25,274 nt of DNA, taken from IMG/VR virus record IMGVR_UViG_3300010354_000582, positions 1 through 25,274 of that record; one strand, given 5' to 3'. The DNA is from a virus. Shown piece by piece: positions 697-25,274 of the stretch. Positions within the stretch are counted from its first letter, which is position 1. The number at the start of each line of letters is the position of its first letter. Below the pieces are notes generated by a model. That model did no database searches and had not been told where the DNA came from. It was given only the letters and a program-made list of their open reading frames with translations. The translations under genes were made by a program, and so were the position numbers.

Positions 697-1182
697 TCAG
701 TTCGCGTAGTCTTTGCTGTCAATGAACGTGGGCGGCGCGACTCCGCGTGGATACACGTTCGGCAAACCGTCGTCTGAGAAGATTGCTGATGGCCGCACCT
801 GCGGACCGTCCCACTCGACGCGCTCTTCGGGCAGCTCCGGTTCCTGCGCCATCTGGGCGAGGACGGCTGGTGGGGCTTCGGCGGGTACGGGGTGCTGCTT
901 GGGCATGTCGCGCCATCCAGGGATGTTGACCTCGATGCGCTTTCGGAATTGGATGCCAAGGTCTTCGCACCAACTGCTGAAGGTGGAGTAGGAGACGCGG
1001 ACCTTGTTGTGGTCGCAGAAGGCCCGGTGCAACTGCTGCCGGTTTTCGATCTCCGGCAGGGTACGCACGATGCCCACGATCCTGGGTGCGATGACGAGGC
1101 GTAGGACTTCCGCCCACATCACCGCACCCAAGACCGACTTGCCTGCTTCTTGGCTGGTGGGGTTCTCAGTCGTTGGTTCCAT
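697..1182 (-). CDS. Hypothetical protein between recombination nuclease and ATPase
   Basis: This is a 161-aa protein I do not recognise. I chose ATG 1182 (GGAG 8 nt upstream) over a GTG at 1206; the chosen start overlaps the nuclease gene by 17 bp. The middle (about 15-85) is helix-rich with an LPEIENRQQLHRAF segment followed by VSYSTFSSWCEDLGI, which resembles the turn-and-recognition part of a helix-turn-helix, so DNA binding is possible but not shown. The C-terminal half is rich in Pro and Glu and looks disordered. It contains two copies of the dispersed GCTGGTGGGG motif (866 and 1153), read as APPA and NPTS. Its position suggests a helper of replication or recombination. Confidence 0.65.
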   Translation of the reverse strand: MEPTTENPTSQEAGKSVLGAVMWAEVLRLVIAPRIVGIVRTLPEIENRQQLHRAFCDHNKVRVSYSTFSSWCEDLGIQFRKRIEVNIPGWRDMPKQHPVPAEAPPAVLAQMAQEPELPEERVEWDGPQVRPSAIFSDDGLPNVYPRGVAPPTFIDSKDYAN

Positions 1183-2380
1183 TCTCAAGCTCCGTGAATG
1201 TGTCACGGTCGCGCTGCATGAATCCTTCGAGCCTGATGACTTCCGGCCACTTGCCGGGCTCCACCGCGTGGAACGTCATGTAAGGAGACGGGGTGCCGTG
1301 TTGAACAACGGGGTCCCCAATCTCAAACTGTGCGGGCTGGGACTTGCGCGACGTGTAAGACCGGATGAACCGGAGGCGCGCATTGTACTCCGAGTAGAGA
1401 TCGTCGCAAGAGAGAAGTTCGGAAGATGTGGTCGAAATCGCAACGCATGGGTCCGTCAGCCGTTCGGGTTCGAGATGGCTGTATTCGCCGCGGCCGAGGT
1501 ACCAGTCGATGCACCGTTGCTCGTAAAGGGCAGGGTCCGGCTCACCGGTATAGATACGCTCGTTGCGGGGTTCGCCCTTGCGGGGACCGGACTTAAAGGG
1601 GGACTCATCGAGGGTGAATGGGCGGTCCTTGGAGCCGAACTCGATGGACGGCTTACGGACGGCGATGTGCAGGACACCGCCGATTGGTCCGTAGTTTTCG
1701 TAGTTGCCGTTGGCAACGGCGTCGGAGAGGGTGTGGTAATAGTGCTGGGTCTGGAACTCGAGGGGGCAAGTCTGAAGGCGCGCGTTGGTGGAGAGGGAGG
1801 TGGTCTTGAAGTCCACGATCCACACCTTCCCGGCCTTGTCCTTGAGCAGCACGTCGGGCTGGATGAGGCGGTCACCGTGGTGGATCTCCGGCTCCTGCGC
1901 GATGATGGTCCAGTCCTCCGCGAACCGCTGGGCCAGGGTGCGTCCGCTGCCATCGGTGATGGTCAGGGCTGCGTTGAACCAAGCGATGCTGGTACGGGCG
2001 TCCTGCTCCTCGCGGGCCACGATCTCCCGGATCTTGTCGGGGGACACGCCGAGGACCTTGCACACGTCCCGCAGCTCTTCGCACCGGGCGACGATGGCGT
2101 CTTCCAGTTCGGCGGCACGTGACATGGGGTCGGACAGGATGCAGGCAAAGGCGAGATGGACCCAGCTGCCGCGGTTCAGGGCACGGCTGTACTGCATGGC
2201 CTTGACCAGCCCGAGTCGGCGGGACAGGTAGTAGGTACGGGGGCACGACCGCAGCAGGCGGTAGTCAGAGGAGCGGATGGGTGGCAGGCGCGCGAAGATG
2301 CCGTGTGCTTCAAGCCACGGGGTCACGCTGGCATCGGACAGGCTGGTGGGGTACTGCACGGATTCGACGGTGGGTGGCAT
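1166..2380 (-). CDS. PD-(D/E)XK nuclease, Cas4/RecB-like
   Basis: 404 aa from ATG 2380, preceded by AGGAG with 6-nt spacing; an upstream in-frame start at 2473 would add a basic, low-complexity leader across a hairpin and is rejected. The active site is visible as QPDVLL (Asp176), then WIVDFKTTS (Asp190, Lys192), then the QxxY-like QHYYHTL (about 212-218). The N-terminal RLLRSCPRTYYLSRRLG and NRGSWVHLAF (about 41-78) match the RecB/AddB nuclease-domain entry motifs (CPxxYY, GxxVH). Cas4/RecB-type enzymes cut or resect DNA ends. Fewer than four candidate cluster cysteines are positioned as in Cas4, so an Fe-S cluster is not supported. It heads the operon to the ATPase gene. Confidence 0.85.
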   Translation of the reverse strand: MPPTVESVQYPTSLSDASVTPWLEAHGIFARLPPIRSSDYRLLRSCPRTYYLSRRLGLVKAMQYSRALNRGSWVHLAFACILSDPMSRAAELEDAIVARCEELRDVCKVLGVSPDKIREIVAREEQDARTSIAWFNAALTITDGSGRTLAQRFAEDWTIIAQEPEIHHGDRLIQPDVLLKDKAGKVWIVDFKTTSLSTNARLQTCPLEFQTQHYYHTLSDAVANGNYENYGPIGGVLHIAVRKPSIEFGSKDRPFTLDESPFKSGPRKGEPRNERIYTGEPDPALYEQRCIDWYLGRGEYSHLEPERLTDPCVAISTTSSELLSCDDLYSEYNARLRFIRSYTSRKSQPAQFEIGDPVVQHGTPSPYMTFHAVEPGKWPEVIRLEGFMQRDRDTFTELENGTND

Positions 2381-2400
2381 AGGGACTCCTGGTGTTGAGC

Positions 2401-2432
2401 GCACGCGGGGCGCACCGCGCCTCCCCGCGTGC
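2401..2432 (-). promoter_or_regulatory. Perfect 10-bp hairpin in the 5' leader of the nuclease gene
   Basis: The arm GCACGCGGGG (2401-2410) pairs exactly with CCCCGCGTGC (2423-2432) around a 12-nt loop. It lies 21 nt upstream of the nuclease ATG and just 5' of its SD. No U-run follows, so it is more likely a leader or operator structure than a terminator. Confidence 0.6.
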
Positions 2433-2480
2433 GCGACTCTAGGGGACGGGGGTGTAGTATGTACTTCACCCATGCTGATG

Positions 2481-2704
2481 ATCTAACCTCCCGCCTAGGA
2501 CGGGCCAAGAACAAGATGCCGTGGGTGAACCGGCAATGCGGGTAATGGGAATCCCGCTCAGCAAATGGGCTGTGTCAAAAGCACTCCACTTGTCGACAAG
2601 TGTGGCAGATTTGTACACGTTATTTGGGACTGTCGACCCGGCGTACACGGTAAGAAATACTGGTAAGTGTTTCTTACAGGAATCGGATTCCCGTAAGTGG
2701 AAGT
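2481..2704. promoter_or_regulatory. AT-richer intergenic control region with several palindromes
   Basis: This is the gene-free stretch upstream of the nuclease-ATPase operon. It holds a perfect 16-bp palindrome CACTTGTCGACAAGTG (2587-2602); an 8-bp inverted repeat GTAAGAAA/TTTCTTAC (2650-2657 and 2670-2677); a GGAATC-G-GATTCC palindrome (2679-2691); GGGAATCCC (2547-2555); repeated GTACACG (2613 and 2643); and repeated TGTCGAC (2592 and 2631). A consensus -35 hexamer TTGACA reads on the minus strand at 2578-2573, 8 bp from the 16-bp palindrome. I see no good -10 at 17 bp from it. Promoter plus operator for the leftward operon is inferred. Confidence 0.55.
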
Positions 2705-2971
2705 TTAAGTTCCAGTCCGCCGGTAGCCAAGACGCCACAGGAGGCGTGACAGGTCACGGGCGGTAGCGTCGACTGCTGCTTCGTCCAGTTCTGGACGGGA
2801 GCAGTGGATCGCTTCGTGGATGATGGTGTCTAGGGTGTCCTCTTCTCCCTGCCAGGTGCCCACGCGGATCAGGCGGCCCTGCGCCTTGCCCGGATCCTGC
2901 ATGTCACCGTAGTCGCGCATGTTCGGCGCGAACCGCAGCGTCCAGTACTTGCCACCGAGTCGGACACGCAT
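2705..2971 (-). CDS. Small HExxH metallopeptidase-like protein
   Basis: 88 aa with TLDTIIHEAIHCSRPELDEAAVDATARDL in the second half. The IHEAIH is a zinc-metallopeptidase HExxH motif, and the glutamates about 7-10 residues later (ELDEAAVDA) could be the third ligand, as in minimal SprT/WLM-like domains. The protein is very short for a full protease. The N-terminal YWTLRFAPNM strand matches the short beta segment that precedes HExxH in such phage proteins. The 13-nt gap from the metallophosphoesterase stop codon to this ATG consists almost entirely of the dispersed 10-mer and has no SD, so translation may depend on coupling. Proteolytic activity is not established. Confidence 0.65.
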   Translation of the reverse strand: MRVRLGGKYWTLRFAPNMRDYGDMQDPGKAQGRLIRVGTWQGEEDTLDTIIHEAIHCSRPELDEAAVDATARDLSRLLWRLGYRRTGT

Positions 2972-2984
2972 GGCTGGTGGGGGC

Positions 2985-3923
2985 CTAGTGGGCGAGGTGG
3001 AATTCGGGGGTCAGCTGGTAGTACGTCTTGGTGTCGCCGCTGATGGTGCGGCCAGACTTCTTGGAGAGGTAGAGGCGCATCCAGATTGCGCCCTGAACTT
3101 CGGGTCCTCGGCCCTGTTCGATGTGCCAGCCGGAGTGGCCGTCACCGAACTCGTCCTTGTAGGTGCCCGTGCGAACGTGGTACTGGATGTCGCTGACTAC
3201 GCGGCAACCGGCTTTGTCGCAGACTAGCCGTTCGCGGGACAGTGGCATGAACCACTGCTTGTGGACGTGGCCCTGGACGATCACGTCTGCGTCAGGCATG
3301 ACGGCTGCGTTGCGGCGGACCTTGAGGGTGTCGAACGACATGAGCGCAGCCCCACCAGCCCCGTGGAAGTACTTGAGGGATAGGTTGTACCGCTCGTTGT
3401 TGCACTCCGCGAAGAACTTAATCCCCCCGCCGTATCCGCCTGGATGAACCTTGTGGCTGGACTGCTGGCTCATGCGTTCGCATAGCCGCTCGGTCAGATC
3501 AGTTTCGCAGTTCTTGAGGATTGCGGTTTCGTGGTTGCCGCGCCCGATGACCACGAAGTTGGCGGCGTAGGGGGTGTAGAAGTCAGAGGCGTGGCGGACT
3601 AGGGAATCGAGGTAGTCCGCAGCCAGTGCATGCTCTTCGCGTATGCCTGCCTTGTTGCGGCGAGGATCAAACTTGCCCTCCATCGCGCAGAATAAATCGC
3701 CGACGTCAATAATCCCTGCGCGACGCGCAATGGCTTCATCGAGGTGGGCTTTCTCAAGGGCATGGTCAGCGTGAGGATTGTCATGGTGGCGGTCCCCGGA
3801 CAGCAGGAACCACCACTCGTCCGTTCGCGAAGTGCAATCGAGATCAACGAGGTGGATGTTCCTCGTTGCTGCCCTCACTTGGAACGGTGCTTTGGGATGC
3901 GATCCCAAAGGGGGTGTGGTCAT
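2985..3923 (-). CDS. Calcineurin-like metallophosphoesterase
   Basis: 312 aa from ATG 3923. All metal-binding blocks are present: SGDRHHDN (Asp44, His46), DVGDLF (Asp76), RGNHET (Asn130, His131), YFHGAG (His187) and QGHVHKQW (His219, His221). The family hydrolyses phosphomonoesters or phosphodiesters, including nucleic acids (Mre11/SbcD relatives), but no nuclease-specific capping domain is seen, so the substrate is open. The start overlaps the stop of the upstream 39-aa membrane protein as TGATG, so it is probably translated by coupling; there is no strong SD. An alternative start at 4001 would read through that small gene in another frame and is rejected. Confidence 0.85.
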   Translation of the reverse strand: MTTPPLGSHPKAPFQVRAATRNIHLVDLDCTSRTDEWWFLLSGDRHHDNPHADHALEKAHLDEAIARRAGIIDVGDLFCAMEGKFDPRRNKAGIREEHALAADYLDSLVRHASDFYTPYAANFVVIGRGNHETAILKNCETDLTERLCERMSQQSSHKVHPGGYGGGIKFFAECNNERYNLSLKYFHGAGGAALMSFDTLKVRRNAAVMPDADVIVQGHVHKQWFMPLSRERLVCDKAGCRVVSDIQYHVRTGTYKDEFGDGHSGWHIEQGRGPEVQGAIWMRLYLSKKSGRTISGDTKTYYQLTPEFHLAH

Positions 3924-4042
3924 CAGAGCTTGTGGCCGTGCTTCTTGCAGAGGTACCAGCCAGCAACAAAGCCAATGGCACCAAGCAGGGCCGCGAACCA
4001 CAGGCTACCGAGGAAATCGCCGAAGTCTGCCAGAATCATCAT
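3923..4042 (-). CDS. 39-aa single-pass membrane protein
   Basis: This small ORF begins with two ATGs and encodes MMILADFGDFLGSLWF followed by a hydrophobic span (about residues 13-31, containing AALLGAIGFVAGWYL) and a short basic tail CKKHGHKL. Its first ATG overlaps the stop of the lipoprotein gene (ATGA), and its own stop overlaps the metallophosphoesterase ATG (TGATG), so it sits in a tightly coupled operon. AAAGG lies 5 nt before the start. Size and topology fit a small holin-like or lysis-accessory protein, but nothing beyond topology supports that. Confidence 0.7.
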   Translation of the reverse strand: MMILADFGDFLGSLWFAALLGAIGFVAGWYLCKKHGHKL

Positions 4043-4539
4043 GAACCTTTCTTGTGAACTTTCCGCCACGCAGCGTCAAACTCAGGGTCGGACGCCCGCC
4101 GCGCGGCGATGTACTCACGGGCGTCTTCGGGTTTGTCAGGGTCCAGCATGCCTGCTGCAAGAGATGCGTCTTGCACCTTTCGGCGGGGCAGCCAGCCAAC
4201 GGCAACTCGGATGGCCGTGCCAAGTCCGGTCTGCCACAACATGACCGCAATCGCAACGGCCACCACGGCAGCAGCCACCCACCAAAGCGTCGATAACCAA
4301 GCAGGTGTTCGGTCCTCCAGATGAGGAATGCTGCCATGGATATCGCCAGCCAAATCGTTGATTCGCTCGGCACGAGTCACCACCTCCTTGTCGCCCACCG
4401 CTACGCCGTGGTCGATGAGAGCCTGGGACTCGGCCTGGATGGCGGTTGCGTTGCGGCTCACCTTCGCGAGCTCGCTGCACCCCACCAGCAGGCTAGTTGC
4501 GAGACTCAAGCTGGCGGTCAATCTTGTCCAGCCGTGCAT
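4039..4539 (-). CDS. Lipoprotein with an internal membrane segment; possible unimolecular spanin
   Basis: 166 aa. The N-terminus is a lipoprotein signal peptide ending in the lipobox LLVGC (Cys21). Residues about 22-75 are soluble and helical (SELAKVSRNATAIQAESQALI...). A strong transmembrane span follows at about 81-104, then a charged 60-residue tail ending in KVHKKGS. An outer-membrane lipid anchor plus an inner-membrane helix is the layout of u-spanins such as T1 gp11, though their tails are usually short. GGAGG lies 7 nt before the ATG. The gene overlaps the upstream TM/coiled-coil gene by 47 bp out of frame, reminiscent of Rz/Rz1. No endolysin is visible nearby, so the lysis role is inferred. 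Confidence 0.65.
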   Translation of the reverse strand: MHGWTRLTASLSLATSLLVGCSELAKVSRNATAIQAESQALIDHGVAVGDKEVVTRAERINDLAGDIHGSIPHLEDRTPAWLSTLWWVAAAVVAVAIAVMLWQTGLGTAIRVAVGWLPRRKVQDASLAAGMLDPDKPEDAREYIAARRASDPEFDAAWRKVHKKGS

Positions 4540-4693
4540 TGATCGCCTCCTGCTGGGTCACGAGACGCATGAGCAGGCGGTCGTGCGTGAGGTACCCGCT
4601 TCCAAGGATGGTCAGCAGCGTGATCGCCACGCCGATGATGCCAGCCCAATCGCGCAGCGACAGCTTGACGATGTTGTTCCGCTCTACGGTCAT
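4493..4693 (-). CDS. 66-aa protein with one N-terminal TM helix and coiled coil; holin- or i-spanin-like
   Basis: MTVERNNIVKLSLRDW leads into a hydrophobic helix (about 17-36, GIIGVAITLLTILGSGYL) and then a charged heptad-like helix (about 38-64, LLMRLVTQQEAINARLDKIDRQL). This is the shape of short phage holins or inner-membrane spanin subunits. The 3' end overlaps the lipoprotein gene by 47 bp. A GGGA lies shortly before the ATG. It is probably the first gene of the small membrane-protein operon downstream of the SGNH cassette. Assignment rests on topology only. Confidence 0.65.
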   Translation of the reverse strand: MTVERNNIVKLSLRDWAGIIGVAITLLTILGSGYLTHDRLLMRLVTQQEAINARLDKIDRQLESRN

Positions 4694-4737
4694 GTCTTAT
4701 CCCGCTATCTCCTGGGTTGGTTTAAGGTCAATTTAGC

Positions 4738-6567: not shown

Positions 6568-6568
6568 G

Positions 6569-6886: not shown

Positions 6887-6888
6887 GA

Positions 6889-7479: not shown

Positions 7480-7978
7480 GAGATCGTTCCTGGCTGATGA
7501 GCCACCTCAGTGCCCACTCCCCTGCGGCCCTACGCTGGCCGACCGTGCTCAGGGGCATGAGGATGAGCGGCAATCCGAACGCCCCGATGATATCCAATAA
7601 AGCGTCCGTCGCAACGCCCGGATGTGGAAGTCCAGCGCGTACTTCAAAGGCGCCAATGGCACCCTCAAAGAGCAGGCATGCGGTACGGCATTCGTCGCGC
7701 AGGCGTTTGCAGCAGTCGGTGAAACGGCGGTAGCCGTCGGTGGTTAGGCAATTACCGGCTATCTCCTCGAAGCTGCCCTTGCGCTCGATTGCGCTATGGC
7801 CCCCCACCAGCCGGTAGTCCCCTGTCTTGAGGGTCTGGGTTTGAGTGCGGACCGTCAATGTGCGAGACCGACCGGCGGTGGGTAGGCGACCCCTGTCCAA
7901 GACCACAAGGTGTGCCGGGAACGTGAGGGGTTTCTTCTCCCGGCTGTCAATGATGAGGTCGACGTGGGACACGCCCAC
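7265..7978 (-). CDS. ERCC4-type nuclease with an out-of-frame C-terminal read-through
   Basis: The N-terminal 165 residues form an ERCC4/XPF-like nuclease domain: LIIDSREKKPLTF (about 8-20), then GDYRLVGGHSAIERKGSFEE (about 53-72), matching the GDxxxERKxxxD active site with Glu in the last acidic position. Such enzymes cut branched DNA. The start is GTG, either 7978 or 7972; the latter has AGGA at 7 nt and is preferred. The last ~70 residues (HVIGPDLHQHEQR...) lie over the next gene in another frame and look like non-native sequence. The native end may have been lost when the downstream cassette was joined here. The frame stops at 7265. Confidence 0.75.
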   Translation of the reverse strand: MGVSHVDLIIDSREKKPLTFPAHLVVLDRGRLPTAGRSRTLTVRTQTQTLKTGDYRLVGGHSAIERKGSFEEIAGNCLTTDGYRRFTDCCKRLRDECRTACLLFEGAIGAFEVRAGLPHPGVATDALLDIIGAFGLPLILMPLSTVGQRRAAGEWALRWLISQERSHVIGPDLHQHEQRSLRNDHGQRGRESDCCVAGKCLGSQQPPDPLDQAGRDCVPELPVHRQQPELPPNQDPH

Positions 7979-9448: not shown

Positions 9449-11533
9449 TCACTCGTAGATAAGGGGTGCGTGGTGTCCTGAACGCTTGCAGAGGTTGTGC
9501 CAGTAGCCGTGCTTGCCAACGAATTCAACGGCTTCCTGCATGAGGTTGGCTGCCTGATGCTCTGTTCCAGCGGGGCAATCGAAGTACAGGGCGTCGTAGA
9601 CCTGGAGGAACATGAGCGGATGCTGGTGGCTGGTGGGGTTCGTGATCGGTCCCATCGCACGGTGGATGAAGTTCTGGATGGCGAGCATCACGTTCCCGGC
9701 GGTGGCTTGGACGGGGAAGTTGCAGACTTCGGAGATCATCGACTTGCCGCCACGCCCCACCAGCTGACGGAGTTCACGGCGGGTGCGCCATGCACGTTGG
9801 TCGAGGTGGAAGTTGGTGAAGGTACGGGTGTGTCCGGTGTAGGGCAGTTCGATGTAGCCCTTGGACTCCGCGATCTGAGTGAGTGAGTACTGCCACTCCA
9901 CAAGGCGTGGACGTTGGGCATGGCGGGACGCGACGATCTGCTCAAAGAAGGGCAGGGGATAGAGGGTGCCCGACATGTCGAGGACTGAGCGCTGTAGGCG
10001 GGCGGCTGATGCGCCGAAGAGGTCAGCAAAGTTGACGGTCTTGCCGATCTGACGGAGGGCCTTGAAGTCGGCGCGGTCCTTCGCGTCGGTGCCGAAGATG
10101 GCGAGGGTGCGTTGGGTGTGAAGGTCGAGGCCGTCGTTGAATGCGGCGAGCAGGGTGGGTTCGCCGGACAGGATGGCGGCGACGCGGAGTTCGATCTGGC
10201 TCAGGTCGAAGGCGACGATGCTGCCACCCTCGAAGCGTGACTCTTCGCAGTCCTTGATGACGGCGGGGAACGTCTGGGCTGCGGGGTTCTTGCAGGTGAT
10301 GCGAGCCTGGATGGTGCCGCCTTCGGAGCCTGAGTCCTTGGGGATCGAGGGCACCGTGTACCAGGTTGGGTAGGCGATGCCGATGTCCCGGCGATCTGGC
10401 CGTCTGAGGAGGACAGATGAGCGGTCGGTGGGCTTGGTGCGACGGTGCCGGAGGAGGGGGTAGGTGTAGGAGGAAACTAGTTTCTGTGCGGTGGCGTGCT
10501 TGTCGGCGCACTCGAAGATGGTGCGAGCGGGGTGTGCGTCGGGGAGGTGGCTTGCGATGAGGCGGCGGTTCTCGCTGGACCACGACAGTTCGCGTGCCTT
10601 CTCCGTGTAGGTGAGGAGAGGGTGGGAGAGGAAGTCTGGGTTGGTGGGGAGGATGTCCTCGATGCAACGCTGCATGAATTCGCGCTGGCTTTGGACGCTG
10701 CCTTCGCCTTCGATGAGTACCCCACCAGCAGCGGCGCAGTTGGATGCTTCGTCGGCCTGTGTCAGCAGGTCTTGCTCGAGTGTTTCGAGGCGGGGCATGG
10801 AGAATGGGATGCCCGCTTCGGACATGCGGATGGTGGACCACAGGGTTTCGCTGAAATGCTTGACGCTGTAGGAGCTGAGTTTGTCGGTGTCTGGGTAGTC
10901 CTGCTGGATGCGGCGCGCGAGGTGGGCCACGGCGAGCATGGTGTTGTGCGTGTCCTGCGCGTTGTAGTCGTGCAGCTCTGGGCTGGTGGGGGATGGGAAC
11001 CGGCGACCGTCCTTGAGCGTGGCGTCGTCACGGTAGGAGTGCGTGCCGAGGACGGGGCCCAGGGATTTGAGGCTGCGCTCGGGCCGGAGTTCGGAGTGCA
11101 GGAAGTTCACCACGCTGAGGTCGATGAGGGTGTGCCGACCGTTGAGGGCGAGAGCGAGGGCGGGCGTGAATGCACGGAGCCAGAGGATGTCGAACGGCAA
11201 GTTCATGCCGACGATGGTGTGCGCATGGCGGAGCCACGCCAGCAGGATCCCGTGACTGGTGGGGTCCGTGAGGTTCAGGGTGAAGGTGGGGCCGGGCACG
11301 AGGCTGGCCACGGCGTCGAGGTTCCACATGCCGGGCAGGCTGGTGGGGGGCTCGGCTGCTGCGACGGTGATGGCGCAAGTGAGGACAAGATCCTGGCGGG
11401 CAACGCCGTCCGTGGCGATGGCCCGTGCAGGATGAAAGACTGTTTGGGGTGGAAGGATTGTGCCCTTGCCGTTGGTGGCTGCTGCTCCGTACGTTTCAAT
11501 GTCGAGGGAGATGACACGGGGACTAGTACTCAC
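9449..11533 (-). CDS. Family A DNA polymerase with 3'-5' exonuclease domain
   Basis: 694 aa from a GTG start that overlaps the upstream coiled-coil gene by 11 bp. The proofreading exonuclease is intact: ExoI SLDIETYG (Asp11, Glu13), ExoII GMNLPFD (Asn111, Asp115), ExoIII YNAQD (Tyr190, Asp194). The polymerase domain has motif A AFDLSQIELR (Asp443), motif B RQIGKTVNFADLFG (Arg494, Lys498, Phe502) and motif C QVYDAL (Asp647). There is no 5' nuclease domain, as in T7-type replicative enzymes. Two deviations stand out: motif C reads YDA instead of HDE, and the motif B tyrosine is Phe506. It carries five exact copies of the dispersed 10-mer. It is the likely replicative polymerase. Confidence 0.93.
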   Translation of the reverse strand: MSTSPRVISLDIETYGAAATNGKGTILPPQTVFHPARAIATDGVARQDLVLTCAITVAAAEPPTSLPGMWNLDAVASLVPGPTFTLNLTDPTSHGILLAWLRHAHTIVGMNLPFDILWLRAFTPALALALNGRHTLIDLSVVNFLHSELRPERSLKSLGPVLGTHSYRDDATLKDGRRFPSPTSPELHDYNAQDTHNTMLAVAHLARRIQQDYPDTDKLSSYSVKHFSETLWSTIRMSEAGIPFSMPRLETLEQDLLTQADEASNCAAAGGVLIEGEGSVQSQREFMQRCIEDILPTNPDFLSHPLLTYTEKARELSWSSENRRLIASHLPDAHPARTIFECADKHATAQKLVSSYTYPLLRHRRTKPTDRSSVLLRRPDRRDIGIAYPTWYTVPSIPKDSGSEGGTIQARITCKNPAAQTFPAVIKDCEESRFEGGSIVAFDLSQIELRVAAILSGEPTLLAAFNDGLDLHTQRTLAIFGTDAKDRADFKALRQIGKTVNFADLFGASAARLQRSVLDMSGTLYPLPFFEQIVASRHAQRPRLVEWQYSLTQIAESKGYIELPYTGHTRTFTNFHLDQRAWRTRRELRQLVGRGGKSMISEVCNFPVQATAGNVMLAIQNFIHRAMGPITNPTSHQHPLMFLQVYDALYFDCPAGTEHQAANLMQEAVEFVGKHGYWHNLCKRSGHHAPLIYE

Positions 11534-12043: not shown

Positions 12044-12273
12044 GTTCCGTACTTCTCCTTTCGGATCTCGAGGAAGCCAGGGCCGTTGCCCTCTGGGTCC
12101 CGGAAGATGGTGACGATCATCTGCTGGTGCTTGTTGTCTGGCTTGCGGAGGACAAGAGCGTAGAGCGTTTCGTCGTACTCGCTTGCATCCTCGTACTTGA
12201 TGGCGACGGGATGTGAGACGGTCCACCCCACCAGCTGACGGAGGTGTTCGTACTCGGGGTCGGTGTCAGTCAT
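12040..12273 (-). CDS. Small beta protein with DPEGNGPGFL motif
   Basis: 77 aa from ATG 12273; an in-frame start at 12351 is rejected because it adds a Ser/Thr/Pro-rich leader over the upstream gene. An N-terminal helix HLRQLVG precedes strands VAIKYEDAS, YALVLRKPD, HQQMIVTIFRDPEGNGPGFLEI. The DPEGNGPGFLxI ending is a pattern I recall from small phage proteins of unknown role. It overlaps the upstream gene by 8 bp and the downstream gene as ATGA. Confidence 0.6.
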   Translation of the reverse strand: MTDTDPEYEHLRQLVGWTVSHPVAIKYEDASEYDETLYALVLRKPDNKHQQMIVTIFRDPEGNGPGFLEIRKEKYGT

Positions 12274-12565: not shown

Positions 12566-13236
12566 GTGGTCCTCGGGAGGAAGGGTGCGTGGATGAGCGG
12601 AGCCGTGGGCCGTGCGAGTTCGCCGGTCAGGAAGTTGCGGAGCAGGGCGAGATGGTCGGCGACGGGGTGGATGAGGCCGGGCTCGCGCAGGACTGCGGCG
12701 GGGTGGTAGGTGGCGAACAGGTGAGTGCGGGTGAGGGTGGGAATGGACATGCCCTGCACGCGGAATGCGTCTTGCTGGGACAGTGCTTTCTTCTGGAACG
12801 TGCGGGACAGGTGAGTGACCGGATCTGCACCGGCGCACAGGATGGCGCGGGCTGGAGCGGGAGTATGGTGGTCGAGGATCGTGGCGATGTCAAGCAGGGT
12901 GTTGGCGAAACAGGTGCGGTAGTGCGCGGGCTTGGGCTTGCCACCAGGCGAGACGCAACGTGCGATGTTGCAGAGGTAGACGGTTGCGATGGACGAGATG
13001 GTGGAGCCGGTGAGATAGGGACCGGCGAGGAGCTGGCCGGATGGACCGATCCAGCACTCGCCTGCACGGTCTTCTTGGGTGCCGGGGTTCATGCCGATGA
13101 CGATGACCACGGGATTGGTGGGGTCAGGCGGCAGGCTGGTGGGGAGATGGCGAGAGGGGATGCCGACGTTCTTGGCGCCGGAATGGAGATCGCAGCCCAC
13201 GCAGGTGGGCTTGGCCGGGAGCAGTGTGAGTTGCAT
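12562..13236 (-). CDS. Uracil-DNA glycosylase, family 4/5-like
   Basis: 224 aa. It has the superfamily motifs GMNPGTQEDRAGECWIGPSG (about 48-67; motif 1 and the xGxxG loop) and ATYHPAAVLR (His178; motif 3). Cys12 and Cys15 (CVGC), Cys89 and Cys109 are spaced as in Fe-S cluster-containing family 4 enzymes. These remove uracil from DNA by hydrolysing the N-glycosidic bond. The motif-1 position where family 4 has Glu (GEAPG) is Met-Asn here (GMNPG), closer to other branches, so the exact family is uncertain. It lies 3 bp after the NADAR gene, in the same operon. Confidence 0.87.
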   Translation of the reverse strand: MQLTLLPAKPTCVGCDLHSGAKNVGIPSRHLPTSLPPDPTNPVVIVIGMNPGTQEDRAGECWIGPSGQLLAGPYLTGSTISSIATVYLCNIARCVSPGGKPKPAHYRTCFANTLLDIATILDHHTPAPARAILCAGADPVTHLSRTFQKKALSQQDAFRVQGMSIPTLTRTHLFATYHPAAVLREPGLIHPVADHLALLRNFLTGELARPTAPLIHAPFLPRTT

Positions 13237-13695: not shown

Positions 13696-14035
13696 GTGGT
13701 CCTTTCGGCGGGACGAGATGAGTGTACCCCACCAGCCAGAGCCTTATCGTGGTGACCTCTAGTAGCGTCGACTGTGCGCGGATATCACGGCAGGGAGTCG
13801 AGAGGCATGGGTGCTCAGAGGAGGTCGGATGGCTGGGGGATACGTCCCTACGCACGGACCGTCGTCCGCTACCAGGCAAGCCTGGAGCGCAGGGTGTTCA
13901 CCGGATTCCGCTTGACACCGGTTACGAGTCGGTGGTGCGGACGGTCCAGTGGCTTGGTGGGGCAGGGTCCCGACGCACGCTGACCGGCGACGTGCCGGGG
14001 CATCTCGTCAGAGAATCGGGCCCTGCCCCGTGTAG
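13696..14035. ncRNA. 340-bp gene-free, highly structured segment; candidate non-coding RNA or control region
   Basis: It lies between the NADAR gene start and the stop of the 206-aa gene, in a genome where genes otherwise overlap. It contains nested inverted repeats: a 14-bp stem with one bulge (13959-13973 with 14016-14029) enclosing CTGAC/GTCAG; CCAGG-CAAG-CCTGG near 13872; GGAC-CGTC-GTCC near 13857; and GGTGT/ACACC and CGACT/AGTCG pairs. One exact dispersed 10-mer is at 13727-13736. Plus-strand ORFs across it have no SD and unconvincing protein composition. I recognise no known RNA family; transcript direction is unknown. Confidence 0.4.
13959..14029 (-). terminator. Long bulged stem just downstream of the 206-aa gene
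   Basis: A 14-bp GC-rich stem with a single bulged base closes a 42-nt loop that can itself fold. It begins 7 nt after the TAA at 14036. No T-run follows on the minus strand, so it is not a classic intrinsic terminator; it may stabilise the mRNA 3' end or be part of the structured RNA. Confidence 0.4.
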
Positions 14036-14656
14036 TTAGAGAGCGTGGGCTGGGGTGGGCAGGTACGTGTCGCGGACGTTGGGTCCGGTGAGGGAGAAGA
14101 CGGGACCGCGGATGTAGGCGGGGACGGCTTCGTTGTAGAAGGAGTTTGATGGGCAGCCTGCATGGTCTGGGTAGATGGCCTTGGCGCGGGGGTGCTCCTG
14201 GTCGAGCGGGTGCAGGCAGTCGATGAACTCAGCGCAGACGCTGGCGGGCGGGAGCATGCGGGTCGGCTCGTCCAGGATCTTGTAGTAGAGGCGGGCGTAC
14301 AGATCGCTGTCGGAGAGATGGTTGGTGTGGAACAGGAACATTCCCGCCTTGGCGAGTGCTTCGATGATGGTCCACAGTTCGTCGTGGACGTCGAGGCTTG
14401 TGGTGAGTTCGTGCGGGGGAACGGGGATGATGCCGTACTCGAGGAGGCGGGCGCGGCTGGTGGAGTTGGGTGCCTCGGTCGTGTCGTAGACCATCGACCA
14501 GTACATGATGTCGTTGGTTTCGGCGGAGGAGGCGGCGAGCTCAGCGATGCGACGGGTGCGGGTCTCGAAGTGTTCGTCGCGGAGTTCGATGGCCTGCTGC
14601 TGGATGCGGCTGGTGGGGATGGGCGAGGAGTAGGGACGGGTGCGGGTGGCGATCAC
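14036..14656 (-). CDS. Conserved hypothetical protein with TNHLSDxDLYxRL motif
   Basis: 206 aa. The N-terminus is a basic helix (SRIQQQAIELRDEHFETRTRRIAEL). The core has PPHELTTSLDVHDELWTIIEALAKAGMFLFHTNHLSDSDLYARLYYKIL (about 80-125), a pattern seen in uncharacterised phage and bacterial proteins; the helices around HLSDxxLY are the most conserved-looking part. Function unknown. The start overlaps the upstream stop as ATGA. A dispersed 10-mer copy (14609) is read as IPTSR near the N-terminus. Confidence 0.65.
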   Translation of the reverse strand: MIATRTRPYSSPIPTSRIQQQAIELRDEHFETRTRRIAELAASSAETNDIMYWSMVYDTTEAPNSTSRARLLEYGIIPVPPHELTTSLDVHDELWTIIEALAKAGMFLFHTNHLSDSDLYARLYYKILDEPTRMLPPASVCAEFIDCLHPLDQEHPRAKAIYPDHAGCPSNSFYNEAVPAYIRGPVFSLTGPNVRDTYLPTPAHAL

Positions 14657-16013: not shown

Positions 16014-16601
16014 TCAGGTGTGTGCCCACGGAATGCGGCGGTCGAGTCCGCCGATGGAGGTCCAGGCGGAGTCGGGATCGCGTGCGAGTCGGTTGGTACG
16101 CGGGCAGCGGACGATGCCGAGTCGGCGGTAGAGGCGGGCCCGGAGTGCGCGGCGTCTGTCCGTGTTGAGGAGGGTGGAGACGGTGGTGGGGGCTGGTGGA
16201 CGGGGCGGTGTGCGGATGACGTCTGGGCGGGCGGGGGTGTAGCGATGTGAGCCGCCTGCGGACATGGAGAGGTCGTGCTCGGTGGAGAGGACGCGGTTCC
16301 AGTGGCGGTAGACGTGATGCCAGACGGGTGGCAGGGATTCGAGGGAGCGTGTGACTTCCCACGCGGCGCGGAAGGAGAACTCGTCGCGGTAGATGGACTC
16401 GTGTTCGGTGGGCAGCGGGATGCCTTCGATGGCGTCGGAGGCTGGTGGGGAGAGGGTGGGCCGGTGGTCCTCGGTGAACGGGAGGTTGGGCAGGGCTGGT
16501 GGGGTGGACGAGTCGATCTCGGAGTGGCGGACGATCCAAGAGGAGAAGGGCAGGGGGACGAGAAGTGCGGAGACGGTGAGAGATGGCAGTTGGGACTTCA
16601 C
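16014..16601 (-). CDS. Hypothetical 195-aa protein, possible signal sequence
   Basis: The start is GTG 16601 with AAGGA 5 nt upstream. The N-terminus, VKSQLPSLTVSALLVPLPFSSWIV, is hydrophobic and could be a weak signal or membrane segment. The rest is Pro-, Arg- and Ser-rich, with FRAAWEVTRSLESLPPVWHHVYRHWNRVL (about 80-108) and a basic region with LLNTDRRRALRARLYRRLG near the end. Not recognised. Two exact dispersed 10-mer copies (16441, 16495) lie within it, both read as PPA. Confidence 0.55.
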   Translation of the reverse strand: MKSQLPSLTVSALLVPLPFSSWIVRHSEIDSSTPPALPNLPFTEDHRPTLSPPASDAIEGIPLPTEHESIYRDEFSFRAAWEVTRSLESLPPVWHHVYRHWNRVLSTEHDLSMSAGGSHRYTPARPDVIRTPPRPPAPTTVSTLLNTDRRRALRARLYRRLGIVRCPRTNRLARDPDSAWTSIGGLDRRIPWAHT

Positions 16602-16626: not shown

Positions 16627-16662
16627 CCCCCACCAGCATGCCGGAGCAGAGGCTGGTGGGGG
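16627..16662. repeat. Inverted pair of the dispersed 10-mer forming an 11-bp hairpin
   Basis: The 16627-16637 arm (CCCCCACCAGC) pairs exactly with 16652-16662 (GCTGGTGGGGG) across 14 nt. Both arms are exact copies of the dispersed motif in opposite orientation. It is intergenic, 26 nt upstream of the GTG start of the 195-aa gene, and has no T-run, so it looks like an operator or RNA leader element rather than a terminator. Confidence 0.65.
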
Positions 16663-17562: not shown

Positions 17563-17618
17563 GGCTAGGACTCCTTGGGGACGGGATGTGAGCGATCGGG
17601 CAACGTGCCCGAAGAGAA

Positions 17619-17650
17619 ATCCCCCACCGGCGGTGAGGCCGGTGGGGGAT
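17619..17650 (-). terminator. Intrinsic terminator, 12-bp stem
   Basis: ATCCCCCACCGG (17619-17630) pairs exactly with 17639-17650 around an 8-nt loop. On the minus strand TTTCTCTTC follows. It lies 4 nt after the 90-aa gene's stop. Confidence 0.75.
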
Positions 17651-18247: not shown

Positions 18248-18286
18248 TTTGTGCCTTTCTGTTCGAGTTGCGTGACGGTGAAGGAA

Positions 18287-18318
18287 AGTCCCCGTAGCCG
18301 GTTAGGGCTACGGAGACT
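18287..18318 (-). terminator. Intrinsic terminator, 13-bp stem with one mismatch (copy 2)
   Basis: The 18287-18299 arm pairs with 18306-18318 with one C-A mismatch; TTTCCTTC follows on the minus strand. It shares the CCCCGTAGCCGGT core and the flanking CGGTGA with the terminator at 18045-18076. Confidence 0.8.
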
Positions 18319-18332
18319 GAGTGCGACGAGGC

Positions 18333-18656: not shown

Positions 18657-19101
18657 AACGTGCTCCTTTCGAGCGAGATAGGCGATTGGCACTCGGAGAA
18701 ACGATCTCCAAGGGATGCCAACCCCCTGCAGCGCAAGGGGGTTGCAACCCACTACCACGCGGGACACACGAGCGTCACACAACCGGGCTCGGAAACGAAC
18801 GTCGCGAAACGTGACGAGCCCCGGCGCGCACGACCGTCACACAAGCGCGACCCCAACGTCCGGATGCGCAGCGGGTCCGGTAACGGCGTCTGGGGTGTAG
18901 GTGTCCGCCGACGGGGGGGGGTGCGGCCCCTCGCCGGGGTCTAGCCGGAAGGGGAAAGCCCCTCTCCCTCTCAAAATTCCCTACCAAATCCCTAACCAGT
19001 ACCTCCAATACCAACCCTCTTCTCTTTCGTAGAGAGAGTTATATATAAAGGATAGGAAACGGTATGTCTGTCCGGTACACCCGGTCTGCCCAATAACACA
19101 A
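18657..19101. promoter_or_regulatory. Long non-coding segment: candidate replication origin and promoter region
   Basis: A 445-bp stretch without a credible gene next to the helicase cluster. It contains an 8-bp leader stem (18719-18726/18737-18744); a direct repeat CGTCACACAA (18773-18782 and 18835-18844) with an inverted GTGACG between the copies; a G9 run (18913-18921); a pyrimidine-rich tract with CCCTACCA/CCCTAACCA near 18980-19000; a TCTCT-TTCGT-AGAGA hairpin (19021-19035); and the AT-rich palindrome TTATATATAA (19039-19048). Repeats plus an AT-rich unwinding element fit an origin or a strong leftward promoter. Neither is proven. Confidence 0.45.
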
Positions 19102-19132
19102 CCCCCCACCGACCTTTCGGCCTGGTGGGGGG
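19102..19132 (-). terminator. Intrinsic terminator after the 83-aa gene
   Basis: CCCCCCACC (19102-19110) pairs with GGTGGGGGG (19124-19132), with a GACC/GGCC-like upper stem and TTTC loop. TTGTGTTATT follows on the minus strand. It separates the helicase operon from the non-coding region. Confidence 0.75.
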
Positions 19133-19143
19133 CGGAGAGGAGT

Positions 19144-19395: not shown

Positions 19396-19403
19396 CGGGC
19401 CTC

Positions 19404-20819: not shown

Positions 20820-20845
20820 GTTGTCTCCTCTCTGAGATCACCATT

Positions 20846-21865
20846 ATGGCGTCCTACACGAATCCGTCAAGCACCTACCTGACTTCCGCCACAAACTTTC
20901 AGGGCGTGCCCATCTCCCAACTCCTCGCAGCACTCGGCGCACCCGAGCCGTCCTCCACCTTCGCCGCTCCACCCGTCACCCAGCACGGTTTCGGTCTCCG
21001 CGGCATCCGTGGCTCGAAGCCCGACCCCCGCAATCGCCCGCGTCCCCGCGCGACTACACAGACCACTGCACAGACCACACAGACCGCGCCTGCCCCCGCC
21101 CCCACCACCGCAACCAGTTCCCTTGTCGATCCGGTCTCGACCCGTGGCCTTAAGGGCGCCGCACTCCAGAACGCCTACGCCCAGAACCGCGCAGCCATGC
21201 GCGCGCGTCGCCAGCAGGAAGCCCAGGACCTCGAAGCCACCAAGGCTGCCAACCGCGCACGGCTAAAGCAGGAAGCCATCGACCGGCCAAAGAAAGAAGC
21301 AGAGAAGGCCCTTGCAAAGTCGGATGCGGCACTAGCCCGAAACCTTCGGGAACCAGACCGTGGCTACGACAAGGCAGAAGCCGCGCGCCTTGCGCCGCGT
21401 ACACCTTCATCGACCTACACCGCCCCAGCCGCAACCCCCGTCTCTAGCCGATACCAGGAAGTCGAAGGCATGCTCGGCGACATGGAGGCCCGACAGGCCG
21501 CTCAGGACCTCGAAGCTCTCTACAACAGAGCTGCAATCTATTCCAAGTACGGAACTGATGAAGAGAGGCTTGCTGAACGCAATCGCCTTGAGGCAGATCA
21601 GGAAGTCCTCGACCGCAACGCAGCCCGCGCGCAGATGGCTGTTGACGAAATCCACGCACGGCAAAACGCGCGCCGCATTGCAGAAGCACACACACCCGAA
21701 AAGCTTCCCGAGATCAACGACCCTTCGCGTGTCCTAGATGCTTTAGGTCAAGCTTTCTCGCCCTCAAACTACTTTGGGGCTTATCCGTTGTACCGAACCT
21801 TTGCTGATCCGATCAGCGAGCTGTATCGCAAGGCATTCCCGCGCGGACCAATCTTCGTCCGGTGA
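20846..21865 (+). CDS. Ala/Arg/Gln-rich coiled-coil protein, first gene of the rightward arm
   Basis: 339 aa. The N-terminal 100 residues are Pro/Thr/Ala-rich and disordered. Residues about 105-280 are long charged helices (QNRAAMRARRQQEAQDLEATKAANRARLKQEA..., ARQAAQDLEALYNRAAIYSKYGTDEERLAERN). The C-terminus (LGQAFSPSNYFGAYPLYRTFADPISELYRKAFPRGPIFVR) is more hydrophobic. I do not recognise it; composition suggests a scaffold or internal virion protein. There is no clear SD, and only 26 bp separate it from the helicase start, so its promoter must overlap coding DNA. Confidence 0.65.
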   Translation: MASYTNPSSTYLTSATNFQGVPISQLLAALGAPEPSSTFAAPPVTQHGFGLRGIRGSKPDPRNRPRPRATTQTTAQTTQTAPAPAPTTATSSLVDPVSTRGLKGAALQNAYAQNRAAMRARRQQEAQDLEATKAANRARLKQEAIDRPKKEAEKALAKSDAALARNLREPDRGYDKAEAARLAPRTPSSTYTAPAATPVSSRYQEVEGMLGDMEARQAAQDLEALYNRAAIYSKYGTDEERLAERNRLEADQEVLDRNAARAQMAVDEIHARQNARRIAEAHTPEKLPEINDPSRVLDALGQAFSPSNYFGAYPLYRTFADPISELYRKAFPRGPIFVR

Positions 21866-22362
21866 GTACGGGAGAGAAACACGTCATCAGCTTTGGGCGC
21901 GGTGTGCGCCTGATGAGCGAGGCGTACTACATCGAGGAGTTGCGCGGCTTTGGCATTGACAAGCCACGCGCATTCCGTGCGCTGTGCCGTTCCATCTGCT
22001 GCCCAATCATCGTCCTGGGCCGGGTTGCGTTCGTGGACCCCGCCGTGTTCCAGGTCTGCATCAAGCACTTGTCGGTGCCGGGCAGTTTGGACTTCAACGG
22101 CCCGAACTCCAACATGAAGCCTGACCGCAAGCGCAGGCCCTACATCCGCACCAAGGTCCCTGCCCGCGAAGTCCGCCGCAACTGGAGGCTCGTGGTCCGC
22201 GCCATCATCGACTCCCGGCGGATGGTGGGGCTTCACTCCCCACCAGCAGAACGTGCAGCAATCAAGAGTGCGGCCGCGGAGTTGACCCGGTTTGTGCTTA
22301 CAATGATCCCATCCGGCGAACAGGAGCAGCAGGATGGCCAAGCAGTACAACCTCAAGCCTAA
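21862..22362 (+). CDS. Hypothetical basic protein
   Basis: 166 aa from a GTG that overlaps the previous stop (GTGA); an ATG at 21913 (MSEAYYIEELRGFGIDKPR) is an alternative start. The segment EAYYIEELRGFGIDKPRAFRALCRSICCPIIVLGRVAFVD looks like a helix-turn-helix followed by a strand pair. A basic stretch (MKPDRKRRPYIRTKVPAREVRRNWRLVVRAII) follows. DNA binding is plausible. It overlaps the next gene by 29 bp. Confidence 0.65.
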   Translation: MSTGEKHVISFGRGVRLMSEAYYIEELRGFGIDKPRAFRALCRSICCPIIVLGRVAFVDPAVFQVCIKHLSVPGSLDFNGPNSNMKPDRKRRPYIRTKVPAREVRRNWRLVVRAIIDSRRMVGLHSPPAERAAIKSAAAELTRFVLTMIPSGEQEQQDGQAVQPQA

Positions 22363-24250
22363 GGAGCTTCAGAGCGTTTGGCGAATGATGATTCGTTCGC
22401 AGGACTTCTCATTCTCCCCTGACCGAATCAACAACCTTATTGAGACGCTGGTGGGGCTCGGTGAGATCCGCAAGGAAGTTGCGGCTGAGGCGCGGGCAAT
22501 TGCTGCATACGGCGGCGAGATCATGTCGGGCCGCGGGCTGACTGAACGGACCGCTGATGTTCCGGAGGGTAAGTCGTTTGAAGAGTTGGATATGCGCAAT
22601 TACACCTCAGGTGTTGACCGTGAGGGATTGCGCGCTCGCGAGCGATTTGCGGAACCCGTCCGAAGACGCTTGCGGTTTGCATCTGACGTTGACCCTGGCA
22701 TTCTCCAGATCCTTCAGAAGTCCTTCAAGACCAACGAGGGAAAGCGGTTGTTCCGCCTTGTCCGCAACAAGGCAGTAGAAGAAGGGACCATTCCGCCCAC
22801 CAAAGTCACACGCGGATCCATTAGCGCAGAAGTGCGTGCGATGGCCCGCAAGGGCGGTGAGTACCAGGAACCCAAGATCCCTGGCAAGGTTGTCCGCCGT
22901 GCGCGCGCCCAGAACGCAGCAGAGGCAAGAAGGCTTGGCTGGTCTGGTCCACGAAAGGGATACCTAAATAGGACCGTTGAGTACGAGCGCGGTGGAGCAA
23001 CTTACGGGGAAGAACTGTCGGAGATGGAACCTGGCGGCCGCGGGCTCCCCATTGTCGGTGAAGCCCTTGGGGTATTTGGTAGCCAGAGTCCGGAAGAGCG
23101 GTTGCGTGGGAGCCAGGCTAAGGCGATTGCGCGGCTGGCTCGTCTTGCAAAGCCTGTTCCACTTGAGGGCGGTCGTGCTGCCGAACTCCAGAAGGACACC
23201 AGCGCAGAAGAAGCAAGGTCGGAACTGCTGGCGAAGAACACCCAGCGAATCCTTCGGTTTGTTGAACGTGCATTGCTCAACAAGATAAATTCTGGCAAGC
23301 TGAGTCCGAAACAAGAACGCAACGTCAAGCGTAAGCTTGAGAAACTCCGCGAAGGGCTCAATCAAGCGGACAAGAGAAGCCTCATCGGTGAGAGCATTGA
23401 CGTTGTTTCGAAGAAGGCGACCGGTCTCATGGGCCGGATCCTCAAGGCACCGAAGGCTGTCCGCGAACGACTTCGATCACTTGCGCTCCGCAACTCGCCG
23501 GAATTCAAGAGGGAACTCCAGAAGCTTGTTGCGGCCTACAAGGCTGAAGTCAAACTTCGTGAACGCGAGCGAGCCAAGGCAGAGAAGTCACGGCAACGCC
23601 CGCAGCGTGGATTCCGTCAGGTCAACGAGCGCGAGGTGTTGCGTGGACGCGTGGCCAAGTTTGAGCCCGATGTCCCACCAACCCCTGAAGAAGCCCGGCG
23701 TGCAGCGGAACGCGAGGCTCTGAGCCGCAATGCCAATGAACTTGGTAGGCGTGTTGGTGTCCGTAACCTCGAGGCGCAGGGTCGTGTTCGTCGGCTTCCA
23801 GGAGGACGCCCGGTCTTGCTTGCTGATATGTCCCCTCGGATTCTTGAGCAGCCCATCAAACCTCCGCCCGCAAGACAGACATTAAGTTTGTCGGAGGCTG
23901 GTGTTGCGGTTCCTCGAAGGACCGGAGGAGGCGAGTTTACTCTTGGGGTCGAGGACGATATTGAAGATTTGCGGGCCCGGGCTAAGTGGGAGAAAGAGAA
24001 TGCCGAATACGAGAGAAGGTTCAACGCTTTACTTGAGCGGCTTGAGCGCGGAGCGGCGGCTCGTGGCGACGAGGTTGGTCGGTACCGCAGAGAACAAGAG
24101 GCGAAGGCGGCAGCAGAGGCAGCTGCAATAGAAGCGCGCAACGCTGAAATTGCAGCTCGTGCCATGAAGCCTGGCGCACGGCGCAGGACGTTGTGGAAGA
24201 GCGCAAACCCCGTGGAGGTGCTGAGATGGCTGAGTCGAAGACCCCGATAA
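22334..24250 (+). CDS. Large basic helical protein, possible internal virion or scaffold protein
   Basis: 638 aa, start ATG 22334 with AGGAG in the leader. It is very rich in Arg, Glu, Ala and Lys, with long charged helices (residues about 270-420 and 560-620, e.g. LLAKNTQRILRFVERALLNKINSGKLSPKQERNVKRKLEKLREG). The N-terminal 60 residues (LKPKELQSVWRMMIRSQDFSFSPDRINNLIETLVGLGEI) are a compact helical domain. No known motif. Position upstream of the terminase genes and composition suggest a structural or DNA-condensing protein. The last bases overlap the next gene by 25 bp. Confidence 0.65.
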   Translation: MAKQYNLKPKELQSVWRMMIRSQDFSFSPDRINNLIETLVGLGEIRKEVAAEARAIAAYGGEIMSGRGLTERTADVPEGKSFEELDMRNYTSGVDREGLRARERFAEPVRRRLRFASDVDPGILQILQKSFKTNEGKRLFRLVRNKAVEEGTIPPTKVTRGSISAEVRAMARKGGEYQEPKIPGKVVRRARAQNAAEARRLGWSGPRKGYLNRTVEYERGGATYGEELSEMEPGGRGLPIVGEALGVFGSQSPEERLRGSQAKAIARLARLAKPVPLEGGRAAELQKDTSAEEARSELLAKNTQRILRFVERALLNKINSGKLSPKQERNVKRKLEKLREGLNQADKRSLIGESIDVVSKKATGLMGRILKAPKAVRERLRSLALRNSPEFKRELQKLVAAYKAEVKLRERERAKAEKSRQRPQRGFRQVNEREVLRGRVAKFEPDVPPTPEEARRAAEREALSRNANELGRRVGVRNLEAQGRVRRLPGGRPVLLADMSPRILEQPIKPPPARQTLSLSEAGVAVPRRTGGGEFTLGVEDDIEDLRARAKWEKENAEYERRFNALLERLERGAAARGDEVGRYRREQEAKAAAEAAAIEARNAEIAARAMKPGARRRTLWKSANPVEVLRWLSRRPR

Positions 24251-24666
24251 GGGCACTGCCGGGGGAGGAAGTGATCCGCTCGTACTTCGGGCTTGAGGGC
24301 GTCGCGTTGGCGATGCGGGAGAGCAATTGGGAAGTGCGGGAAGAGGTGGAACGGCTGGTGGGGTTCAGCCGGGATCCGGATCCGAAGGTGGCGATGGCGG
24401 CAATGAAGCAATTGCGGGGTGTGGTGAGGGAGACGGCGGAGATCAACGGTATCATCACGAGCCAGAACGCCGAGATCACGCACTCTGACGGGAACCAGAC
24501 CGTAAGGATTAGTGCGTCGGCGAAGCTGGTCCAGTCCCTGAAAGAGACCACTCACCATGTCCAAGTCCCAGACAGTCTCCCCTTCGCAGCCCAGTTCCTC
24601 CCCGCCCGTGATTCCGGATCATCTTCTCAGGGTGTACGAGACGCTGGCGCGTCTGACCCCAAGTGA
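24226..24666 (+). CDS. Possible small terminase or terminase-associated protein
   Basis: 146 aa. ATG 24226 has GGAGGT 7 nt upstream; a GTG at 24193 is rejected. The body is helical (EEVIRSYFGLEGVALAMRESNWEVREEVERLVGFSRDPDPKVAMAAMKQLRGVVRETAEI). Small-terminase-like proteins carry this kind of short helical-repeat segment and sit before TerL, but I cannot confirm the family. The C-terminal 37 codons overlap the next gene in a different frame, giving a Ser-rich tail. Confidence 0.5.
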   Translation: MAESKTPIRALPGEEVIRSYFGLEGVALAMRESNWEVREEVERLVGFSRDPDPKVAMAAMKQLRGVVRETAEINGIITSQNAEITHSDGNQTVRISASAKLVQSLKETTHHVQVPDSLPFAAQFLPARDSGSSSQGVRDAGASDPK

Positions 24667-24895
24667 TTGCTACCGGCTGGGTGCAGCGATCTTCCAGGAC
24701 ATCGGCATTCCGGAGCCCAGCCTATTTCGGGGCGTTGAGCCGCCGGAGATGGGCGTGATGTTCCGTGACGGCATCAAGGCGAACCCGGAGTGGTTCATGG
24801 TGTGCGAGGACCTAGGCCGCTTCGTGACGGACCCGCAGGTGATGGCCATTGCCCTGCTGCGCATCTCCGCCATTCGGATGGTGGGGAAGCGTTGA
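24557..24895 (+). CDS. Hypothetical 112-aa protein before TerL
   Basis: It begins with a Ser/Pro-rich leader (MSKSQTVSPSQPSSSPP) and continues with helices DHLLRVYETLARLTPSDCYRLGAAIFQDIG and VTDPQVMAIALLRISAIRMVG. Unrecognised. It overlaps the previous gene by 110 bp out of frame and the TerL start as TTGA. It has no strong SD, so coupling is likely. Confidence 0.55.
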   Translation: MSKSQTVSPSQPSSSPPVIPDHLLRVYETLARLTPSDCYRLGAAIFQDIGIPEPSLFRGVEPPEMGVMFRDGIKANPEWFMVCEDLGRFVTDPQVMAIALLRISAIRMVGKR

Positions 24896-25274
24896 GCGCG
24901 GTCCGCATCGAACGCAACCGCAACGACCTCTACCCGCTGCCTGCGGACTACCTCGAACTGACGCCGGAAGGCCAGCGATTGGCCCGCGTCAACGCATGTC
25001 GGCAATGGCTGGTGGGGGGCGAGCCGAACGAGCGGGCGCATGCGCTTGCTGCGTGCATCAACTTCTTTGATCGGTACTACCTGTATCCCGATTGGGAAGA
25101 AGAGTTCAATCCCTACTTCTACGATGACGATCCGATTGAATCACCGCTGGGGCATTTCGCCATTTACCGGCTGTGGGCGCTCGCATCACGCAGCGTCGCA
25201 ATTGCTCCGCGTGGCTTTGCCAAGAGCAATTGTTTCCGGAAGTCGGCACTCCTGCAAATGGTTAGCCGCCCGGC
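24892..25274 (+). CDS. Terminase large subunit, 5' part (cut by window edge)
   Basis: The reading frame is open from a TTG at 24892 to the right edge (127 codons plus two bases). The start overlaps the previous stop as TTGA. Residues about 103-123, SRSVAIAPRGFAKSNCFRKSA, hold the TerL Walker A-like motif APRGFAKS, preceded by the conserved PLGHFAIYRLWALA helix. TerL packages DNA into the prohead with ATP and cuts it with a C-terminal nuclease, which is outside the window. The TTG start is unusual; no in-frame ATG occurs before the motif. A dispersed 10-mer copy lies at 25008-25017. Confidence 0.8.
   Translation, partial: MSAVRIERNRNDLYPLPADYLELTPEGQRLARVNACRQWLVGGEPNERAHALAACINFFDRYYLYPDWEEEFNPYFYDDDPIESPLGHFAIYRLWALASRSVAIAPRGFAKSNCFRKSALLQMVSRP

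Follow-up and report, generated by a model that had tools for sequence, protein, structure and literature searches.

The DNA analysed here, called the window, is a 25,274-base IMG/VR record that covers roughly one half of a phage genome of ~51 kb. At its left end, genes for a PD-(D/E)XK exonuclease, a small HTH protein and a Sak4-like ssDNA annealing protein follow one another on the same strand (Table 1), and the order exonuclease, HTH, Sak4-like, small gene is fixed in the complete genomes carrying G-rich words. The Sak4-like and exonuclease assignments come from matches to phrog_124 (E 1e-9) and phrog_1218 (E 2e-16), and the 173-aa small gene after the Sak4-like gene may encode an SSB, judging by the usual position of SSB genes. 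The locus has the make-up of a Sak4-like annealase module, with an exonuclease and a small gene placed where SSB genes usually lie, and resembles the Sak4-SSB module of phage HK620, where a small gene also adjoins the Sak4-like gene in that position (PMC5928155). Unlike in HK620, the HTH and exonuclease genes here precede the Sak4-like gene, and HK620 is devoid of a dispersed word.

Relatives were collected through the polymerase and include phages of 51-53 kb. One of them, G017, has 50,972 bp and a terminal overlap of 127 bases and is probably a complete genome. No close cultured phage was found, the best polymerase matches being ~25% identical, and among ten proteins of the G017 structural region only the terminase had a PHROG match.

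Table 1. Genes, exact copies of the dispersed word and hairpin-forming pairs (window positions unless a relative is named)
Feature	Position	Strand	Evidence
Sak4-like ssDNA annealing protein, cut by window end; start codon inside frame	1..696	-	AAA_24, phrog_124 in relative G017
Small HTH protein, candidate motif reader; between exonuclease and Sak4-like genes	697..1206	-	AF2 tri-helical HTH
PD-(D/E)XK exonuclease, overlaps start of HTH gene	1166..2473	-	phrog_1218; PF12705 in relative G017
GCTGGTGGGG	866..875	+	exact match
GCTGGTGGGG, 5' end of HTH gene; similarly placed site in G003, G006, G017	1153..1162	+	
GCTGGTGGGG	2342..2351	+	exact match
GCTGGTGGGG, intergenic	2973..2982	+	
GCTGGTGGGG	3350..3359	-	exact match
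GCTGGTGGGG	4480..4489	-	exact match
GCTGGTGGGG	7802..7811	-	exact match
GCTGGTGGGG, polymerase gene	9629..9638	+	
GCTGGTGGGG, polymerase gene	9755..9764	-	
GCTGGTGGGG, polymerase gene	10720..10729	-	
GCTGGTGGGG, polymerase gene	10982..10991	+	
GCTGGTGGGG, polymerase gene	11339..11348	+	
GCTGGTGGGG	12226..12235	-	exact match
GCTGGTGGGG, UDG-like gene	13135..13144	+	
GCTGGTGGGG, intergenic	13727..13736	-	
GCTGGTGGGG	14609..14618	+	exact match
GCTGGTGGGG	16441..16450	+	exact match
GCTGGTGGGG	16495..16504	+	exact match
GCTGGTGGGG, intergenic, left arm of hairpin-forming pair	16628..16637	-	
GCTGGTGGGG, intergenic, right arm of same hairpin-forming pair	16652..16661	+	
GCTGGTGGGG	22238..22247	-	exact match
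GCTGGTGGGG	22447..22456	+	exact match
GCTGGTGGGG	24354..24363	+	exact match
GCTGGTGGGG, intergenic	25008..25017	+	
Hairpin pair, window	16628-16661		
Hairpin pair, window	~17617-17650		
Hairpin pair, window	~19100-19130		
Hairpin pair, G017	~316-355		
Hairpin pair, G041	~817-860		

The initial annotation of the window had drawn attention to a dispersed 10-mer, GCTGGTGGGG, and a recount returned the same 24 exact copies (15 plus, 9 minus) between 866 and 25017, making it the commonest 10-mer of the window. Shuffles preserving dinucleotides gave a mean of 0.18 copies (maximum 2 in 100) and shuffles preserving codons gave 1.3 +/- 1.1 (maximum 7 in 500), which upholds the claim that neither composition nor codon use accounts for the excess of the word. 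The shorter TGGTGGGG occurs 40 times, compared with 4.5 in codon-preserving shuffles; 16 of its sites are without the leading GC, where 15 had been counted. The octamer GCTGGTGG is present 28 times and is followed by GG in 24 cases, as reported, so the unit is longer than E. coli Chi. The copies were again found in the four registers PTS, PPA, LVG and AGG, with genes on both strands used, and by the present gene calls five of them, rather than four, are intergenic. With a weight matrix, at a false discovery rate of ~10%, the window yielded ~55 sites with the consensus (G)G[C/t/a]TGGTGGGG, which adds a 5' G and contains an almost invariant GGTGGGG core. The density of GCTGGTGGGG, 9.5 per 10 kb in the window, is far above the background level of ~0.01-0.4 per 10 kb in 58 sampled Myxococcota genomes, so the word is not equally common in unrelated genomes.

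Conservation of the sites was compared among relatives, including at the synonymous positions that the annotation had proposed to examine. Between phages with 77-80% nucleotide identity, 36-76% of sites were kept exactly, whereas the figure for background 10-mers was 14-18%, which makes sites 2-5 times more often conserved than other 10-mers (p values as low as 6e-10). At fourfold-degenerate positions, 85-89% were conserved within sites in comparisons of G017, G006 and G003, versus 51-53% elsewhere; in comparisons with the window the values were 71-77% and 55-57% (p 0.017-0.057). The words of other clades have a similar conservation excess. These results indicate that selection acts on the DNA word itself and, together with the codon-preserving shuffles, rule out an artefact of codon use or composition. 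Individual sites turn over among relatives while the density remains high. The earlier view that the dispersed word has some function is upheld.

The word is a property of a phage family, a point that the annotation had missed along with the clade-specific words. GCTGGTGGGG is enriched in 10 of 10 close relatives, at 5-9 copies per 10 kb, and a de novo scan of the family found a dispersed word of its own in nearly every member. Other members carry the G-rich words CGTGGGGGGAC, CAGTGGGGGT, GAGTGGGGG, AGTGGGGGGA and AGCGGGGAA, and further members GTGGGGGGGA, TAGTGGGGAA and TGGGGGGAG; the distant, HTH-bearing G037 has GGCTTGGGCGGCAA, with 46 sites at <=3 mismatches. The words are weak in G034, G035 and G030, and the scan gave no clear word in G044, G045 and G046. 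Since GC content in the family ranges from 37 to 65%, composition does not explain the common GTGGGG-type core. In control scans no dispersed word was detected in shuffled genomes, lambda or HK620, and the sole find in YuA was an element of seven copies that probably corresponds to promoter-like repeats already annotated there. Scans started from the polymerases of G037 and G044 brought in practically no further members, and divergence among the HTH and the Sak4 proteins was too great for a profile scan of the whole collection.

Other repeats occur in the family. The relatives G039 and G040 (L181-L186), in which an HTH homologue was not detected, carry an unrelated dispersed 14-mer, AGCGACCGCGAGGT, with 18-32 sites; in G039 a ribonucleotide-reductase-like ORF of 885 aa (L182:8041-10698) looks, by eye only, split by an intein-like insert. 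A second repeat, GCTGCGGTG, is found in G030, L065 and L079, is distributed 12:2 between the strands of G030, and is distinct from the G030 word AGTGGGGGAG.

The candidate reader of these words, overlooked in the annotation, is the HTH protein. Its AlphaFold2 model is a tri-helical HTH (pLDDT ~95); Foldseek returned no PDB match at E <= 0.001, and the folds that it resembles are widespread wHTH ones (best Z 6.5), the likeness to wHTH, ArgR and Fur being generic. Residues of the recognition helix vary with the word: SYSTFS accompanies GCTGGTGGGG, SFSTFN CGTGGGGGGA, SK(S/N)R CAGTGGGGG, S(L/F)REFK GAGTGGGGG and SAAKF GTGGGGGGA. Of all proteins in the comparison, it is the HTH domain that correlates best with word similarity (r 0.46; partial Mantel 0.43, p 0.002), although the exonuclease and two structural proteins correlate likewise and the phylogeny shared by word and HTH limits what this covariation can say. 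An HTH homologue was not found in the five distant relatives G044, G045, G046, G039 and G040, none of which has a G-rich word; these are also the most distant members, so the lack of the word and of the HTH gene may be one event each. Taken together, we infer that the HTH protein binds the words.

As to where the sites lie, 777 of 976 weight-matrix sites fall inside genes, broadly tracking the coding fraction, and the remaining 20% compare with ~13% of sequence that is intergenic. Sense and antisense sites are in a ratio of about 267:225 in 19 genomes. In 20 of 20 genomes the strand that does not encode the polymerase has most of the sites (633:331, or 2:1), though gene direction switches along the genome. 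The GC skew mostly matches the direction of this bias, which may therefore be compositional in part and does not prove fork polarity. Sites occur about once per kb with few long empty stretches, and in several genomes their spacing is somewhat more even than random. Divergent pairs that lie close together make GC-rich hairpins, of which about half are intergenic, and divergent pairs less than 60 bp apart outnumber convergent ones.

The stoperators of cluster A mycobacteriophages, dispersed repressor or terminator sites, are a natural comparison; on this reading the HTH protein would be a global transcription regulator. Stoperators are mainly intergenic, are oriented to transcription, and vary in word with the HTH recognition helix between cluster A subclusters (PMC3029335). 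The present sites resemble those of L5 and Bxb1 in having an asymmetric word of about 9-14 bp in tens of copies per ~50 kb phage (about 20-100 sites) and in the covariation of word and helix. Stoperators are bound by the repressor of a temperate phage, a part for which the HTH protein would be the candidate here; in the GCTGGTGGGG clade the HTH gene has a site at its start, and the hairpin pairs, half of them intergenic, would also suit such a role. In contrast to stoperators, the sites are mostly intragenic and show almost balanced sense and antisense orientation, so that two defining features, intergenic placement and a single orientation to transcription, are lacking; the HTH gene sits in a recombination operon; and no integrase was seen among the G017 proteins in the Pfam and PHROGs lists. 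A stoperator function is considered distinctly unlikely. A modification target, also among the roles listed in the annotation, lost its support when no methyltransferase match was listed for G017 proteins in Pfam or PHROGs.

Two further readings would account for coverage of the whole genome. The sites might be replication signals, recognised for example by a lagging-strand primase or another part of the replisome, with the HTH protein as a replication factor; the density of about one per kb, the few long gaps and a polarity opposed to the early genes and matching the G-rich strand would fit, and the family encodes PolA and a D5-type helicase matching phage "DNA primase" families. Yet word similarity is unrelated to the helicase (r 0.02) and only weakly related to the polymerase (r 0.21), no primase domain was seen among the Pfam hits of G017, and 9-14 bp is long for a primase recognition word, which makes this reading unlikely. 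A role in packaging, partitioning or condensing the phage DNA, as a nucleoid-like or translocation signal, would likewise explain coverage of the whole genome with a single polarity irrespective of gene direction. However, the gene of the candidate reader belongs to the recombination operon and is not with the terminase genes, and terminase and putative portal correlate less with the word than the HTH domain does (r 0.25-0.28); this is the least probable of the explanations weighed here. DNA uptake sequences of Neisseria and Pasteurellaceae offer a parallel in layout, as they recur roughly once per kb, occupy genes on either strand and form hairpins as inverted pairs between genes, but here the carrier is a phage, not a competent bacterium, and the word is specific to phage clades.

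The sites also resemble Chi, the crossover hotspot instigator of RecBCD/AddAB: in both cases the word is short, asymmetric and rich in G, is enriched on either strand with a preference for one of them, and is scattered through genes. The strand polarity of the present sites (2:1 in 20 of 20 genomes) resembles that of Chi on the leading strand, which is assigned here from GC skew only. E. coli Chi, GCTGGTGG, is contained in GCTGGTGGGG, and the B. subtilis AGCGG in AGCGGGGAA. The words could then be Chi sites of the host RecBCD or AddAB, gathered by the phages to survive and recombine through the host machinery. Lambdoid phages do over-represent Chi, most strongly when they have no recombinase of their own, at 2-5-fold enrichment and 0.2 sites per kb (PMC3784561). 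The family described here, in contrast, has its own exonuclease/Sak4-like module, its words are enriched ~100-fold at 0.5-1 per kb, and related words recur in phages of 37-65% GC, following the phage HTH protein. A search for the host found family members in one bin only, the Myxococcales bin G015 (NP1036), where GTGGGGGGA is mostly confined to the family contigs C7, C18 and C72 (L120, L139, L140); this confinement also speaks against a host signal, though the bin may not be the host. No tRNA genes, sought as host clues, were found. An origin as host Chi is very unlikely.

Host Chi and stoperators fit less well than a Chi-like tag of the whole genome that is encoded by the phage and read by its own HTH protein, the reading that we tentatively favour although it may well prove wrong. 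The annotation had listed several roles without choosing; a phage-encoded signal, Chi-like or otherwise acting over the whole genome, is now preferred. The positions of breakpoints speak against a simple crossover hotspot: 68 identity breakpoints between related phages were no nearer to sites than random positions (median 321 versus 283 bp), at a resolution limited by the presence of a site every ~0.5-1 kb, and in this respect, too, the words seem to differ from Chi. In the proposed mechanism, the word would be a cis-acting, genome-wide tag of this uncultured phage family, with the HTH protein sitting at the sites. An end of phage DNA under processing would reach an HTH-bound site within about 1-2 kb, where the exonuclease/annealase module would be made to stop degrading and start strand loading. 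Phage DNA would be protected, recombined and replicated, and untagged DNA would not.

The sites are real, selected as DNA, genome-wide, clade-specific and strand-biased, and they go together with the HTH gene and the residues of its recognition helix; a Chi-like consequence of them is speculative. The words and the covarying HTH protein suggest a marking or recombination-signal system encoded by the phage, and no comparable system was found in the limited set of literature searched. It is possible, if doubtful, that the system serves phage self-recognition, the HTH protein at clade-specific words identifying phage DNA to the exonuclease/Sak4 machinery that the phage itself encodes; this would be a Chi analogue evolved inside phages, whose specificity shifts by joint change of word and recognition helix. 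Chi-like signals have so far come from cellular enzymes, and a phage-borne, clade-specific word with its own reader would, if true, be a new form of viral self-marking of DNA. The family offers a dozen or more natural pairs of word and HTH protein in which the joint change of a recognition specificity and dozens of genomic sites, otherwise hard to observe, can be tested.
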